Positions 9,019-38,304 of a DNA stretch of 39,278 nt are shown in pieces (the first letter of the stretch is position 1; the number at the start of each line of letters is the position of its first letter). Source of the DNA: an uncultured Bacteroidota bacterium (GTDB taxonomy: Bacteria; Bacteroidota; Bacteroidia; Flavobacteriales; Flavobacteriaceae); contig CABXBH010000009.1 of the NCBI GenBank assembly GCA_902510415.1, positions 1 to 39,278 on the forward strand. Reading direction: 5' to 3'. Both the position numbers and the translations under genes were made by a program. The notes beneath the pieces were generated by a model, which saw only the letters and a list, made by a program, of their open reading frames with translations, searched no databases and was not told where the DNA came from.

Positions 9019-9882
9019 TTATTTATCCTTGACAAAATCCTTCATGATAAAAACATGAGGAACCGTCAAACTTGAAATAACAATAAATACAAACAAAATT
9101 AAGTTATCACTTGTCAGTAAATCATTGTTGTACTGATATAGTAAAAAACCAAAAATTATTGAAAGTATTGTGAAGGGTAAAGTTTTTAAGTAAAATTTTG
9201 CAAAATTATCATTTTTGAACTCCTTAAACTCTAACATCAACATTGGTAAGGAATGACAAAAACCAAAATATAAAGCGAAAGATGTGAGTAAATCAGTATG
9301 AAAAAATACCATATATAAAATTGTTATCTCTGCATATAAAGGAACCTTCCTCTTAATATCAAAATTTATAATTGATAACATTAAAATAGCTACCGAAATA
9401 AGAAGAAAAAACACATTGTCAAAGCCCGATAAATCTAAATTTGAAAATTCAGGAATTATGTATAATATTTCTTGAAGTTCTGCAATATTATTTAAAAATA
9501 AAGACAATAAAATATTAGCGCCAACCACAAAATTTAATAATTTATTATCAGTGGAATTATATCCAATCACCTGAGTTTCTCCAAAATGATAACAGGAAAT
9601 AATTAGAAAAACTAGTAGCCCAAGAAAAGGTGATATAATCCAAAGAATTATATTTAATATAATTAGAGATACATAAGTAAGAAAAAATACAAACTTGCTT
9701 TGAAATTTTCTAGCACTTGGATTTATAAAAGCAATAATATGATCAACTGACCCATGAGGTATACCAATTGATAGCATAACTATCATAAATAATAAAACTG
9801 AATAAGAACTTTCAAGACCAAAAAAAATAATAGAGAAAGCAAGAATCAATCCAGCTATTTTAGATTTAACAACAACATTCAT
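9019..9882 (-). CDS. blh: Brp/Blh-type beta-carotene 15,15'-dioxygenase
   Basis: A 287-residue integral membrane protein of the Brp/Blh family, which cleaves beta-carotene into two retinal molecules, the chromophore of rhodopsins. Conserved histidines expected to bind iron are visible: PHGSVDH with His43 and His48, YHFGE with His99, GFCHSLP with His210 and VPH with His276; several hydrophobic helices surround them. It lies 86 bp downstream of the proteorhodopsin gene on the same strand, the usual flavobacterial arrangement, but a strong hairpin terminator lies between. No carotenoid genes (crtE, B, I, Y) are in the window, so beta-carotene must be made from another locus. Confidence 0.93.
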   Translation of the reverse strand: MNVVVKSKIAGLILAFSIIFFGLESSYSVLLFMIVMLSIGIPHGSVDHIIAFINPSARKFQSKFVFFLTYVSLIILNIILWIISPFLGLLVFLIISCYHFGETQVIGYNSTDNKLLNFVVGANILLSLFLNNIAELQEILYIIPEFSNLDLSGFDNVFFLLISVAILMLSIINFDIKRKVPLYAEITILYMVFFHTDLLTSFALYFGFCHSLPMLMLEFKEFKNDNFAKFYLKTLPFTILSIIFGFLLYQYNNDLLTSDNLILFVFIVISSLTVPHVFIMKDFVKDK

Positions 9883-9968: not shown

Positions 9969-10694
9969 TTAGCTTCTTGCAGCATGCCATACAGCCATAC
10001 CAAATCCAATTTTGTTAATAGCATCACCTACGTTGTAAATGATATTCATAGCTCCTTCATCGATAGCTACAAAAGCATACCAACCGTCAGTTCCTGCCAT
10101 ATATCCAAGAGGATAAATAGCCCAACCAACAAGAACGAACCATTGTAACATTCTACCAGCCTCTGGAATTTTACCAGAACCACTAGCTAAAGCGTTACCT
10201 ACAGCACCTGAAGGACCACCGAAGATAGATAAACATCCAACTTCATAAGCCATCCAGAAGTAAGCAAGACCTGAAACAGCACCCCAAGTTTGAGCGTCTA
10301 ACATTCCTGTTACACCTGACTCACCGAAGTACCCAGCTACTAACATTACAACTGATGCCCAGAATAATTTTCTCATTCCTACACCTGTTAATAGAGCAAA
10401 TTCTACAACCATTAACGGTACAGTAAGAATCCAGTCTATGTACCTTAATTCAGTTGGAGAAGATCCGTCAAGAACCCACTGCTCTCTCATGTAAAAATAA
10501 TGCACAGCTGCAATACCTGTAATAAGTGCTGCAACAAGCATTGAATCTTTAAATTTCTTGTCAACTTGACCGTGTTGCATTAAAAACCACACAGTTGCTG
10601 CTAACATCGAAACTGAGCCGATAAAAAATGTAAACCCAGTGAAATCACCTGGCTTAATTGAAGCGGCGTCAAAAATAAAATTTAACATTTCCAT
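9969..10694 (-). CDS. Proteorhodopsin, green-tuned light-driven proton pump
   Basis: A 241-residue seven-helix rhodopsin. Aligned by eye to green proteorhodopsin, the counter-ion/acceptor Asp97 is residue 87 (RYIDW), Thr101 is 91 and the proton donor Glu108 is 98, giving the DTE signature of an outward proton pump. His75 corresponds to His65 (HYFYMR), and the retinal Schiff-base lysine is Lys228 (DAINKIGFG). The spectral tuning site (105) is Met95, typical of flavobacterial green-absorbing forms. Base composition is clearly more G+C rich than the neighbours, consistent with high expression. It is divergent from kdsA, has its own terminator and is followed by blh. Confidence 0.96.
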   Translation of the reverse strand: MEMLNFIFDAASIKPGDFTGFTFFIGSVSMLAATVWFLMQHGQVDKKFKDSMLVAALITGIAAVHYFYMREQWVLDGSSPTELRYIDWILTVPLMVVEFALLTGVGMRKLFWASVVMLVAGYFGESGVTGMLDAQTWGAVSGLAYFWMAYEVGCLSIFGGPSGAVGNALASGSGKIPEAGRMLQWFVLVGWAIYPLGYMAGTDGWYAFVAIDEGAMNIIYNVGDAINKIGFGMAVWHAARS

Positions 10695-35192: not shown

Positions 35193-36320
35193 CTATTTTA
35201 TAATAATTTTAGAATTTACAACTCTTGAATTATTTGAAATTTTCAATAAATAAACACCCGATTCCAAATCAAGCTTTAATGAATTTGAATTAATAACTTT
35301 TTTATCTAAAATTTTATCGCCTTTTAAAGAAAATACCTCAATTTTTTCATTATTTAAGGTTTTATTAAAATTTAATAAACCTGATGATGGGTTGGGAAAA
35401 ATTATTAGTTTATCACTTAAGTTATTTAAACCTAAATTCTCATTCCAATTATCTCCAGCATTATCTCCCCAAAGGAAATTCACTAGGTTGGGGTGATCAA
35501 TAAATGGATTTCTGTTTTCTTGAAATTCGTAAATTATCTCATTTCTATTAATTTCAAAATCATCTACGGGGTCATCATTGTGCCATTGAATTAATGATGA
35601 TAATTTACCTAATATTGGATCATTGTTATTTGGGGTTGTATAATCAACTAGTTCTAAATCAAAACTATTATTATTGTGATCATATCCGGGATCGTAACGA
35701 ACAACCATATAAAATAAAATTCTTGCGATGTCTCCCTTTACTGAATTAGGTGGCTCCCAGCTATCGGAATCTGTTAAACATTCTATAGCCTCTGAATGTT
35801 CACTGCCGCCAAAATCATAGTCTTTAGTACCACGTGAAGAATTGACAGATCTATCACAAGGTTTTAGATTATGTACATCTGTGTAAGCATTGTCATCTTC
35901 ATCAGGGAAACCATGAGATTTAGGCCAAACATGTTCTCTATTCCATGAGTTGCTTTGATTACCATTACCGTTTTCATATTGGGAATAATTTCCTGTTCCA
36001 TCTCTATAGTCTTTATCTTGAGATCGACCGGTATATACCAAAATCATATTATCATGATTTTCTGGATCCTGATCTGATAGTTGTATGATATCCCATGTAT
36101 CTGTAGATGATGAAGTATAAGGATAAGTAATATGATTTGAAATAATTTGATATAAAGCTTCTTTTAATTCTCCAGATGATTTACCGTCTGCCTCTTGGTA
36201 ATAATCTTGAGGAATATTTTGCTGAACAATTCCGTAAGTTGGATTTGAAGGAGGGCCAAAATCAGACTGTGCCTGCAAATTAAAACACAAAAGAAAGATA
36301 AATATAACATCACACCTCAT
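35193..36320 (-). CDS. T9SS-exported endonuclease I (EndA/NucM family)
   Basis: A 375-residue secreted nuclease with three parts. The signal peptide starts at ATG 36320 (MRCDVIFIFLLCFNLQAQ). The endonuclease I domain spans about 45-290, with catalytic NREHVWPKSH at 127-136 and RGTKDYDFGG. The C-terminal type IX sorting domain covers about 305-375 (IIFPNPSSG, GVYLLKI, KIIIK). The enzyme would be released to, or fixed on, the cell surface to degrade environmental DNA for phosphate and nucleosides. An earlier in-frame start at 36350 lies upstream of a -7 element and puts ten residues before the signal, so is rejected. Confidence 0.93.
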   Translation of the reverse strand: MRCDVIFIFLLCFNLQAQSDFGPPSNPTYGIVQQNIPQDYYQEADGKSSGELKEALYQIISNHITYPYTSSSTDTWDIIQLSDQDPENHDNMILVYTGRSQDKDYRDGTGNYSQYENGNGNQSNSWNREHVWPKSHGFPDEDDNAYTDVHNLKPCDRSVNSSRGTKDYDFGGSEHSEAIECLTDSDSWEPPNSVKGDIARILFYMVVRYDPGYDHNNNSFDLELVDYTTPNNNDPILGKLSSLIQWHNDDPVDDFEINRNEIIYEFQENRNPFIDHPNLVNFLWGDNAGDNWNENLGLNNLSDKLIIFPNPSSGLLNFNKTLNNEKIEVFSLKGDKILDKKVINSNSLKLDLESGVYLLKISNNSRVVNSKIIIK

Positions 36321-36325
36321 ATATA

Positions 36326-36333
36326 CAAAGATA
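36326..36333 (-). promoter_or_regulatory. Candidate endonuclease promoter, -7 element (TATCTTTG)
   Basis: TATCTTTG on the minus strand fits TAnnTTTG and ends 5 bp before the chosen ATG (36320), so the transcript would begin about at the start codon (leaderless or nearly so). No -33 TTG is seen at the proper distance. Confidence 0.35.
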
Positions 36334-36398
36334 CTGCTAAAATTGGTCATATTTAATTAAATATAAATAAATGGCATAAGGTTTGTTCAATCTAAAAT

Positions 36399-36770
36399 AT
36401 GAAATTTAACCTCTACCCAATCTTATTGATTATTTTGATTCTACATTCTTGTGGAACAAACAAAAATTTGAATAAATCTTCATCTAGTTATTCCATTTCT
36501 CCGGCTGCTACAACACTTATGGATGTAATTGTTGGAAAATTTCCAGGTGTTACCGTAATCGGTGATAAGGTCCTAATTAGAGGTGGAAGTTTGTCAATAA
36601 ACAATCAGGCATATGCTATATACGATATTGACGGAAATATTCAGACCGATTATCCTTCATACGTAGATCCCCAAATGATTAAAAGTATTACAATTCTCAA
36701 ATCACTAGCAGCTACAAATAAATACGGGGGTATGGCAAGAGGGGGAGCAATAATTATTAAATTAAAATAA
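36399..36770 (+). CDS. Stand-alone TonB-plug-like lipoprotein
   Basis: A 123-residue lipoprotein: signal and lipobox LILILHSC (Cys18), a short Ser/Asn-rich linker, then a single domain resembling the plug of SusC/TonB-dependent receptors (VIVGKFPGVTVIGDKVLIRG, AIYDIDGN, DPQMIKSITILKSLAATNKYG, ending GGAIIIKLK). There is no beta-barrel. Such mini-plug lipoproteins occur in flavobacteria without known function. Its stop overlaps the start of the SOUL gene by 1 bp (TAATG), so the two are translationally coupled. Confidence 0.8.
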   Translation: MKFNLYPILLIILILHSCGTNKNLNKSSSSYSISPAATTLMDVIVGKFPGVTVIGDKVLIRGGSLSINNQAYAIYDIDGNIQTDYPSYVDPQMIKSITILKSLAATNKYGGMARGGAIIIKLK

Positions 36771-37315
36771 TGAAATACATACTTTTAAGCTTACTTATGG
36801 TTTTTAGCTCGAGCAAATATGAAACGCAGAAATATGATATAATTTTTGTCGAAGATAACTTTGAAATAAGGTTCTATCAAGCCACATTAAAGGCAAAAGT
36901 TGTATCTAATAGAAACGCTAATGGAAATTTTTATAAACTATTTCAATTTATCAGCGGAAATAACTCAAACGGTGAAAAAATTGCAATGACTACGCCAGTT
37001 TATATGAAAAATGGTGACAATAAAAATACAATGGAATTTGTAATGCCGTCCTCATATAATATTGAAACTATTTCAAAACCAAAAGATGAAAATGTAGTTG
37101 TATTCGAATCAGATGCTAAACACTATGCATGTATTAGATATGGTGGATATTCAAATTCAAATAAGTTTAATAATCATTCGAAGAAACTTATTGAAAAATT
37201 ATCTGATTTAAATATTAAAACAGTCGGTGAAATATTTTATGTTTCTTACAATAGCCCTTATAAAGTATTCGGAAGAAGAAATGAGGTAATGGTAGAAATA
37301 GACTACACAAATTAA
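36770..37315 (+). CDS. SOUL-family heme-binding protein
   Basis: A 181-residue SOUL/HBP protein. Features are YDIIFVEDNFEIRFY near the N-terminus, the FQFISGNNSNGEKIAMTTPVYM block and YGGYSNSNKF followed by the C-terminal RRNEVMVEI strand. Members bind heme or tetrapyrroles; here a hydrophobic N-terminus (MKYILLSLLMVFSSS) suggests export to the periplasm. It is coupled to the plug-like lipoprotein gene by a 1 bp overlap, and its stop overlaps the DUF4920 gene stop by 4 bp. Heme binding is inferred from family only. Confidence 0.87.
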   Translation: MKYILLSLLMVFSSSKYETQKYDIIFVEDNFEIRFYQATLKAKVVSNRNANGNFYKLFQFISGNNSNGEKIAMTTPVYMKNGDNKNTMEFVMPSSYNIETISKPKDENVVVFESDAKHYACIRYGGYSNSNKFNNHSKKLIEKLSDLNIKTVGEIFYVSYNSPYKVFGRRNEVMVEIDYTN

Positions 37316-37752
37316 TTTTCTTCAATTGCTACACCTGTAGCAATCATATTAATCATATATTCAGGTTCGGAAATTAAATCTATTTCTGTCCTTGACTTTT
37401 TAGCATCCTCCGCGTAATGTTTAAGTCTTTCAACTGAAATAGTATCTTTAAAAATTTCACCAGTCATCAAAACTTTTTTTCCTTGAATTCCTGATTTGGG
37501 AACAAAAAAACCATAGTCTTTAAATTTAACGAAAACTGTATCAGTATTAACTTTAACATTCATCCAACATCCTTTTTTTGGACAAACATCTAAAATTTCA
37601 CCTGAAATATTACTGATATCTAAATTATCATCAATTGTATTATAGAATTTCACATCACTATTAATATCTTCTCCATAACTTACAAAAACCTCTTGTGTAC
37701 ATGAAAAAATTGTTAATAAAGTAAAAAAACTGAATAGAAATTTAATTTTCAT
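37312..37752 (-). CDS. DUF4920 lipoprotein
   Basis: A 146-residue lipoprotein (lipobox LLTIFSC, Cys18) with an OB-fold-like DUF4920 domain: SNISGEILDVCPKKGCWMNV (Cys pair around residues 57 and 62), VFVKFKDYGFFVPK and GKKVLMTGEIFKD. The CPKKGCW segment recalls metal or redox sites but is not proven. The function of the family is not established. Its stop is shared with the convergent SOUL gene (4 bp overlap), and it is divergent from the SRPBCC gene 48 bp away. Confidence 0.82.
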   Translation of the reverse strand: MKIKFLFSFFTLLTIFSCTQEVFVSYGEDINSDVKFYNTIDDNLDISNISGEILDVCPKKGCWMNVKVNTDTVFVKFKDYGFFVPKSGIQGKKVLMTGEIFKDTISVERLKHYAEDAKKSRTEIDLISEPEYMINMIATGVAIEEN

Positions 37753-37800: not shown

Positions 37801-38304
37801 ATGGATAAGCTTAAAAATATTTGGAAAATTGAACACGAAGAAAAAATAAGTACATCGGTTGAAAAACTTTGGGAACTGATTACTTCTCCTTCAAATCTTG
37901 AGCTATTTCATCCCTTTTGCAAATCAAATAAAGTAATAGCATGGCCTGGAAAAAATTCTGTTGATGAATTAATATATTTAAATGACTTAAAATATATAAG
38001 AAGTTTTATTTCATGGGAAGAATTTAAGGGCTATAGTCTACTTATTGGAGAAGAAAACCAAAAACAATCTTATGTAATTTGGAAAATCTATAAAAAACAA
38101 GGATTGGTTTTTCTTAAAATTACTATTTACCCTTATTTTTTGAGAGATATTCCAAAAGCAATTTCATACTTACCCTACAAACTCTTTGTAATTCCTAAAA
38201 TGACATCTTATTTAAAGAGTGTGATAGGGGGAATAAATTATTATGTAGAAAAAAAAAAGAAAACACCAAAAAAATATTTCGGAAGCCACAAATGGTTTTC
38301 TTAA
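37801..38304 (+). CDS. SRPBCC (START-like) family protein
   Basis: A 167-residue protein with a helix-grip (SRPBCC) fold: opening strand WKIEHEEKISTSVEKLWELITSP with the typical first helix, then alternating strands and a long C-terminal helix around SYLKSVIGGINYYVEKK. The family binds hydrophobic ligands or catalyses varied reactions; nothing here fixes a ligand. The basic tail KKKKTPKKYFG is unusual. The next gene follows 51 bp later on the same strand. Confidence 0.65.
   Translation: MDKLKNIWKIEHEEKISTSVEKLWELITSPSNLELFHPFCKSNKVIAWPGKNSVDELIYLNDLKYIRSFISWEEFKGYSLLIGEENQKQSYVIWKIYKKQGLVFLKITIYPYFLRDIPKAISYLPYKLFVIPKMTSYLKSVIGGINYYVEKKKKTPKKYFGSHKWFS

Follow-up and report, generated by a model that had tools for sequence, protein, structure and literature searches.

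Among the closest described systems, the TBDT Oar of Myxococcus xanthus is needed for secretion of the subtilisin-like protease PopC, and an Oar variant without the plug domain does not secrete PopC, the variant itself being less stable, as passages on Oar in PMC6434023 describe. For type IX secretion (T9SS), parts of a review list the subtilisin SspA as a secreted effector and describe a Plug protein that obstructs the translocon (PMC10202324). The sole bacterial lead on SOUL proteins that we found in the literature comes from Dinoroseobacter, in which SOUL expression is induced by peroxide together with iron proteins, according to a portion of PMC8007024. No title on an arrangement of plug, subtilase and SOUL genes was found in the literature outside subscription papers and preprints, a search into which SOUL proteins of flavobacteria effectively did not fall.

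Here, we analyzed a plug-only lipoprotein gene and an adjoining SOUL gene in a window of 39,278 nucleotides (the whole stretch of DNA under study). Its host is, judging from isolate names, probably a marine bacterium. As the comparison of related loci shows, the two genes are the remains of a three-gene envelope cluster of plug lipoprotein, T9SS-tailed S8 subtilase and SOUL protein, which occurs in three related genera.

The plug lipoprotein and the SOUL protein

The features of the locus are collected in Table 1. The coordinates, strands and TAATG overlap of the plug and SOUL reading frames are all as an earlier note on this DNA had given them, and both are genuine genes and not chance reading frames, both being conserved with low dN/dS. 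Elsewhere in the window, a proteorhodopsin-like reading frame (9969-10694, minus strand) is followed by one for a Brp/Blh-like membrane protein (9019-9882, minus strand), both named by eye from their translations.

Table 1. Genes and junction at the plug/SOUL locus, in positions of the window (g1, genus of the window; g160, a related genus).
Feature	Positions	Strand	Remarks
Plug-only lipoprotein, 123 aa	36399..36770	+	Signal peptide, lipobox Cys18, Plug from about residue 33 to 123, no barrel
SOUL/HEBP-family protein, 181 aa	36770..37315	+	Short hydrophobic N-terminus
Plug/SOUL junction (TAATG)	36762..36775	+	Site of a subtilase gene of about 2.8 kb in 10/16 genus members; missing here
T9SS-tailed endonuclease I (EndoI)	35193..36350	-	Left border of the cluster in g1 and g160
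DUF4920 gene	37312..37752	-	Right border of the cluster in g1 and g160
Weakly START/polyketide-cyclase-like (SRPBCC-like) protein	37801..38304	+	Below Pfam cut-offs; next gene rightward in g1

That the first gene encodes a 123-residue lipoprotein with a Plug-like domain, as the earlier note had proposed, was borne out by its lipobox (ILHS-C, with the cysteine at residue 18) and by a Plug match just below the Pfam gathering score. Pfam Plug (PF07715) matches with an E-value of 8.8e-5 and 23.4 bits (gathering score 23.9) over profile positions 21-107 of 107, so that the first fifth of the profile, the N-terminal part of the plug, is missing. The SusC/RagA model TIGR04056 gives an E-value of 6e-7, but its 28.1 bits do not reach the curated cut-off of 368 bits. 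A profile built from the 16 plug lipoproteins of the genus matches RagA and SusC chains in the PDB, the best six with E-values from 5e-5 (RagA) to 1.3e-3. There is no C-terminal beta-barrel: the reading frame of the window ends with the plug at residue 123, and the downstream genes are those for SOUL or the subtilase.

The lipobox cysteine is invariant in 22/22 aligned rows (22 of the 26 known loci were aligned), preceded by S in 20 rows and N in 2, the signal peptide being judged by eye. An acidic residue at positions +1 to +6 after the cysteine occurs in 3/22 aligned rows and is missing in the window. Surface-exported lipoproteins of Bacteroidota carry an acidic export signal just after the cysteine. 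By these rules for the phylum, the lipobox together with the near absence of acidic residues would place the plug lipoprotein on the periplasmic face of the outer membrane. No acidic-hydrophobic TonB box was seen by eye in the lipoprotein, in which only 14 residues separate Cys18 from the conserved IS(P).

The structure model of the lipoprotein is poor (pLDDT 61.5, pTM 0.45). In a Foldseek search with this weak model, the best six matches are TBDT chains (probability 0.92-1.00, E-value 0.017-0.098), and neither inhibitor-type nor other folds were found among the best 50 of 286 matches. The dN/dS of the plug gene is 0.06-0.12 in 7/8 pairs and 0.30 in the close pair G004-G005; dS exceeds 2 in 3/8 pairs, and some of the divergence may be older than the protease losses described below.

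The SOUL protein matches PF04832 over the whole profile (1-173 of 173) with 131.4 bits (gathering score 27). Its structure model (pLDDT 79.9) aligns with human SOUL/HEBP2 (3r8k) at Z 17.6 over 158 residues with an rmsd of 2.7, and with heme-bound murine HEBP1 at Z 16.8. The dN/dS is 0.04-0.12 in 7/8 pairs where dS is not saturated. No histidine is invariant in an 18-row SOUL alignment, and thus a conserved histidine ligand is not evident. The earlier note had described an exported SOUL protein: the family assignment stood (131 bits), while export is suggested only by eye, from the short hydrophobic N-terminus. In two other genera (g48 and g58; L040, L050, L051 and L053), the SOUL gene lies between genes judged by eye to be DNA-glycosylase-like and glutathione-peroxidase-like, which hints at an oxidative-stress context.

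The subtilase gene and the TAATG junction

The genus of the window is represented by 21 genomes of 56-86% completeness, in which the absence of a gene elsewhere in the genome is weak evidence. The plug lipoprotein was found in 16/21 and SOUL in 17/21 of them. Neither is present in G008, G010, G012 and G014. The flanking endonuclease gene likewise lacks a close match in these four (G012 gives one match of 34%), and probably these assemblies do not include the plug/SOUL region.

Among the 16 genus members in which the plug gene can be seen, 10 have plug and SOUL separated by a gene of about 925 codons. At these ten loci it overlaps the plug stop in nine cases, the SOUL start in seven and both neighbours in seven; in G003, which is additional to the ten, it overlaps SOUL and the contig starts inside it. 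The product combines an S8 subtilase domain, a PKD domain, Vps10/BNR-like repeats and a type IX secretion tail, with 158 and 39 bits for the S8 domain and Por_Secre_tail in P0001 (G019) and 148.5 and 55.8 bits in P0002 (G018). The subtilase is absent between plug and SOUL in the window (G000) and in G004, G005, G009, G017 and G020. Elsewhere in these six genomes (56-79% complete), no subtilase match was found at 1e-20 save a 36%-identical S8 domain in G017. The resulting junctions are TAATG in the window, ATGA in G004, G005 and G017, and a 4-nt gap in G009 and G020. In addition, the subtilase frame is broken in G015 (L070) and G016 (L064), and the SOUL frame of G016 contains a stop; these broken frames may represent decay in progress or assembly errors.

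Since the related genera g160 and g175 also have the subtilase beside the plug, its absence in the lineage of the window would be a loss, which we consider very probable. A two-gene plug-SOUL operon as the ancestral state was rejected, given the subtilase between the two genes in those 10/16 genus members and its presence in g160 and g175. On a tree of four locus proteins (EndoI, SOUL, DUF4920 and SRPBCC-like; hereafter the flank tree), the presence and absence of the subtilase needs five changes, of which at least four are forced by well-supported branches. Trees built from plug, SOUL or EndoI singly have poor resolution.

With regard to the mode of deletion, we compared locus L163, which has the subtilase, with two loci in which it is absent. 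Identity to L162 is 91% to the right of the gene and 85% to the left, and identity to L182 is 90.7% and 84%, respectively. Both comparisons show a clean gap. As the stop/start overlaps at its two ends have 8 bases in common, its position is defined to within nine equivalent breakpoints, from -3 to +5 of the plug end. Identical repeats of 11-13 bases bound the subtilase in register in G002, G006, G015 and G016 (equalled by 2-5 of 300 random placements). End matches of 8-9 bases are out of register in G001, G011, G013 and G019 (14-22 of 300 controls equal), and the 5 bases shared by the two ends in G007 and G018 are no more than chance would give (equalled by 227-228 of 300 controls). The best reading of the losses would be deletions between the stop/start overlaps that flank the subtilase gene and resemble each other in sequence. 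Such a loss would have put the plug stop on the SOUL start and thereby produced the TAATG junction.

Subtilase and flank trees are mutually incompatible in the AU test (p 4e-4 and 1.3e-5), and G002 is joined with G011 in the SOUL tree, as it is in the subtilase tree. This indicates that recombination also moved alleles, and the number of separate deletions is therefore uncertain. Losses may have spread by recombination instead of arising as separate deletions, in which case our count would include too many separate losses.

These results bear on the proposal that translational coupling implies joint action of plug and SOUL. The two genes do co-occur and stay neighbours, but the TAATG junction is derived, the ancestral order in g1 being plug-subtilase-SOUL, and the coupling is, as judged from the compared loci, the scar of a lost gene. 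In a small genome, a tight gene overlap can be such a scar and not evidence of a functional pair.

Gene arrangement across the family and partners of the plug

In total, 26 plug-lipoprotein loci were available: 16 in the genus, six in four genomes of g160 and g175, and L163, L167, L178 and L180. The loci were found mostly via the plug, which favours plug constancy; among complete genus loci found via SOUL or subtilase, none is without the plug. The order plug-subtilase-SOUL is seen at 13/26 loci and plug-SOUL at 7/26 (the six genus genomes and L167). At one locus (G194:C23) plug and subtilase adjoin with SOUL elsewhere, and at two (G209 and G390) the order is subtilase-plug with a convergent SOUL gene 7-8 nt away on the opposite strand. 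The plug stands alone at its usual place in L180 (1/26). Extra plug copies account for 2/26, one alone (G381:C1) and one separated from SOUL by about 1.9 kb that include an ABC-F-like gene (by eye; G194:C20). On the latter contig (L145), the SOUL gene (4324 to about 4860) has an in-frame stop; it follows an mnmE-like gene (by eye) and is separate from the plug-subtilase pair.

Same-strand contact of the plug is with the subtilase at 16/26 loci (overlap or 0-2 nt, in both orders and in all three genera), with SOUL at 7/26 and with neither at 3/26. Where the contig allows, the full-length subtilase always has an adjoining plug (10/10 in the genus, 4/4 in g160 and g175 together). Since the contact is kept in both gene orders, the protease would be the most likely first partner of the plug; whether it is also the main partner we regard as evenly balanced. 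The protease cannot be the sole client, because the six protease-less genomes and L167 have an intact plug, and at L180, L176 and G194:C20 the plug adjoins neither partner. A further point against the protease as main partner is that SOUL in g1 shows the same constancy as the plug (17/17 genomes that include the region).

Our preferred explanation is that the plug lipoprotein acts as a lipid-anchored, barrel-less protein-binding adaptor related to longer CarbopepD_reg-Plug proteins, a mechanism that we propose as a tentative possibility. It might retain or direct the subtilase on its way out, or act in this way on the outer-membrane barrel that receives the subtilase, and would serve another client in lineages without the protease. 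As a special case of this explanation, the plug could be a chaperone or inhibitor of the periplasmic pro-subtilase, which it would bind and prevent from becoming active before export by the T9SS. The tight spacing at the 16 loci in either order and the constant company of plug and full-length subtilase are consistent with such a role. The plug is nevertheless kept without the subtilase at six genus loci, at L167 and at L180, and its model (pLDDT 61.5) is too weak to judge structure, and we consider this special case quite unlikely.

Next, we surveyed 397 genomes of the family, counting as plug lipoproteins small reading frames with an E-value below 1e-40 among the best 10 candidates per genome; for the subtilase, the best 2 candidates per genome were considered. 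SOUL is present in 50/397 genomes, 49 of them over the Pfam cut-off. The co-occurrence expected by the earlier note was confirmed in one direction, in that the plug lipoprotein was found in 7/397 genomes (best 10 candidates per genome) and 7/7 have SOUL, but not in the other, as 43/50 SOUL genomes show no plug lipoprotein (best 10 candidates per genome) and the plug genomes fall into three related genera. The hypergeometric probability of the co-occurrence is 3.4e-7 by genome and 0.0023 by genus, the latter with these three related genera only. A weaker plug-type reading frame of 157 aa in G415, away from the SOUL gene, was not counted, nor was a SOUL fragment with a stop in the L180 genome, below the cut-off at 24.6 bits. 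The full-length subtilase occurs in 6/397 genomes (best 2 candidates per genome), each time beside the plug lipoprotein. Four further genomes match its C-terminal half only (best 2 candidates per genome). Homologues of this half (residues about 506-921) are reading frames of 435-458 aa in G432, G300, G030 and G375 (L157-L160), with no match to the S8 half.

The plug lipoprotein gave no match in 11 SOUL regions outside the genus, where the subtilase was not a query. Across 31 SOUL loci from 23 genera, these 11 included, none of the neighbour families found in at least two genera is plug- or subtilase-like by eye. By their SOUL proteins, g1, g160 and g175 make up a single clade (support 93), and the sister genus g5 (88) has SOUL and no plug match. 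Hence, the plug-SOUL association is genuine but rests on one clade.

This association could reflect a functional pair, in which heme or another tetrapyrrole is handed over within the periplasm, or in which the plug acts in trans as the gate of a receptor for the SOUL ligand, with the protease as an optional third member that frees heme from outside proteins. Besides the co-occurrence in all seven plug-lipoprotein genomes, the two genes remained neighbours through the five inferred protease losses and are neighbours in g175 in the rearranged, convergent order. In G194, SOUL is gone from the old locus yet lies near the second plug copy, and the SOUL model matches heme-bound HEBP1. On the other hand, most SOUL genomes show no plug lipoprotein among the candidates considered, same-strand contact of plug and SOUL is confined to the seven loci without protease, the plug loci of G194 and L180 lack SOUL, and the SOUL alignment has no invariant histidine. 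We regard a plug-SOUL pair as rather doubtful, and joint action of the plug with the lost protease would be the more likely of the two.

Another possible explanation is mere synteny, that is, three unrelated envelope genes travelling together, with no joint function, in the stable glnA-to-DUF4920 region of small genomes. In g1, the EndoI, DUF4920 and SRPBCC-like genes are equally conserved as neighbours; moreover, the relatedness of the three genera seen in the SOUL clade would favour this explanation. It is harder to reconcile with the plug-subtilase contact kept in both gene orders across genera, and with g175, in which the flanking genes are others save for a distant endonuclease-I-type neighbour and subtilase, plug and SOUL are still together. 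We consider mere synteny unlikely.

Within the preferred adaptor explanation, SOUL would most likely be a separate tetrapyrrole-binding periplasmic protein on the common transcript, perhaps collecting heme freed by secreted proteases. In a further scenario, which we hold to be very unlikely, the plug would be a free-standing gate at the inner leaflet of the outer membrane that closes or opens the T9SS translocon or a TonB-dependent barrel in trans for subtilase export; after loss of the protease it would have been kept for another client, possibly a SOUL-bound tetrapyrrole. If this were true, a plug domain would act on a barrel encoded elsewhere. More broadly, if the plug works in trans, plug domains could be a more general adaptor in the envelopes of Bacteroidota. 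The loci with and without the protease, and with and without SOUL at the locus, in which the plug is kept, are natural replicates and thus a ready comparison for the role of a barrel-less plug lipoprotein.

Comparison with known systems

The genome of the window itself encodes a longer protein of 673 aa (P0003, L002) with CarbopepD_reg_2 and Plug domains, the latter passing the Pfam cut-off with 30.4 bits. It is 52% identical to residues 28-123 of the lipoprotein (48% over 105 columns by tblastn). At 1e-12, the lipoprotein profile matches in 67/397 family genomes, lipoproteins included (best 10 candidates per genome), and the 15 longer reading frames inspected resemble the CarbopepD_reg-Plug family by eye. 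Clusters of plug-domain matches in reading frames of about 580-840 aa were also observed among the best 10 candidates per genome, with at least six in about 13 kb (G407:C4:446289-459535, L126) and at least four in about 6 kb (G234:C1:144490-150322, L140).

A tree of 50 plug domains unites the lipoproteins in one group (support 87), which joins the CarbopepD_reg-Plug proteins against eight SusC-type plugs (support 96). This tree, with its long branches, is moderate evidence that the lipoprotein is akin to the CarbopepD_reg-Plug proteins and not to SusC. A truncated SusC gene was rejected as its source: the lipoproteins are a conserved family with invariant lipobox and low dN/dS, and group with the CarbopepD_reg-Plug plugs, long branches being present. 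The lipoprotein had been put forward as a new use for a plug domain; barrel-less plug domains already occur in the longer CarbopepD_reg-Plug proteins, and the module is not new.

These longer proteins share with the lipoprotein a Plug domain without a barrel, besides the grouping in the tree, but differ in their length of about 580-1000 aa, their CarbopepD_reg domains (by Pfam on P0003) and their TPR-like and further C-terminal regions (by eye). SusC/RagA receptors (TIGR04056; PDB 6sli and 5t3r) resemble the lipoprotein in plug-domain sequence, as seen in the RagA match, whereas the lipoprotein has no barrel, no CarbopepD_reg/STN extension and no N-terminal part of the plug, and carries a lipid anchor instead. 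The SOUL protein of the window is homologous to HEBP1/HEBP2 over the whole domain (131 bits, Z 16.8-17.6) and differs in being bacterial, with a hydrophobic N-terminus and about 20% identity.

With Oar and PopC, as far as passages on them describe, the cluster has in common a plug-domain outer-membrane protein tied to the export of a subtilisin-like protease. In contrast, Oar is a complete TBDT, barrel and TonB box included, and PopC was considered to lack a signal peptide, whereas the protease here is T9SS-tailed. The Plug subunit of the T9SS SprA translocon, in the account given in parts of PMC10202324, blocks, on the periplasmic side, the entrance to an outer-membrane barrel through which T9SS cargo passes; it is set beside PF07715 plugs here on similarity of name. 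Altogether, the plug/subtilase/SOUL cluster is a lineage-specific variant of known modules.
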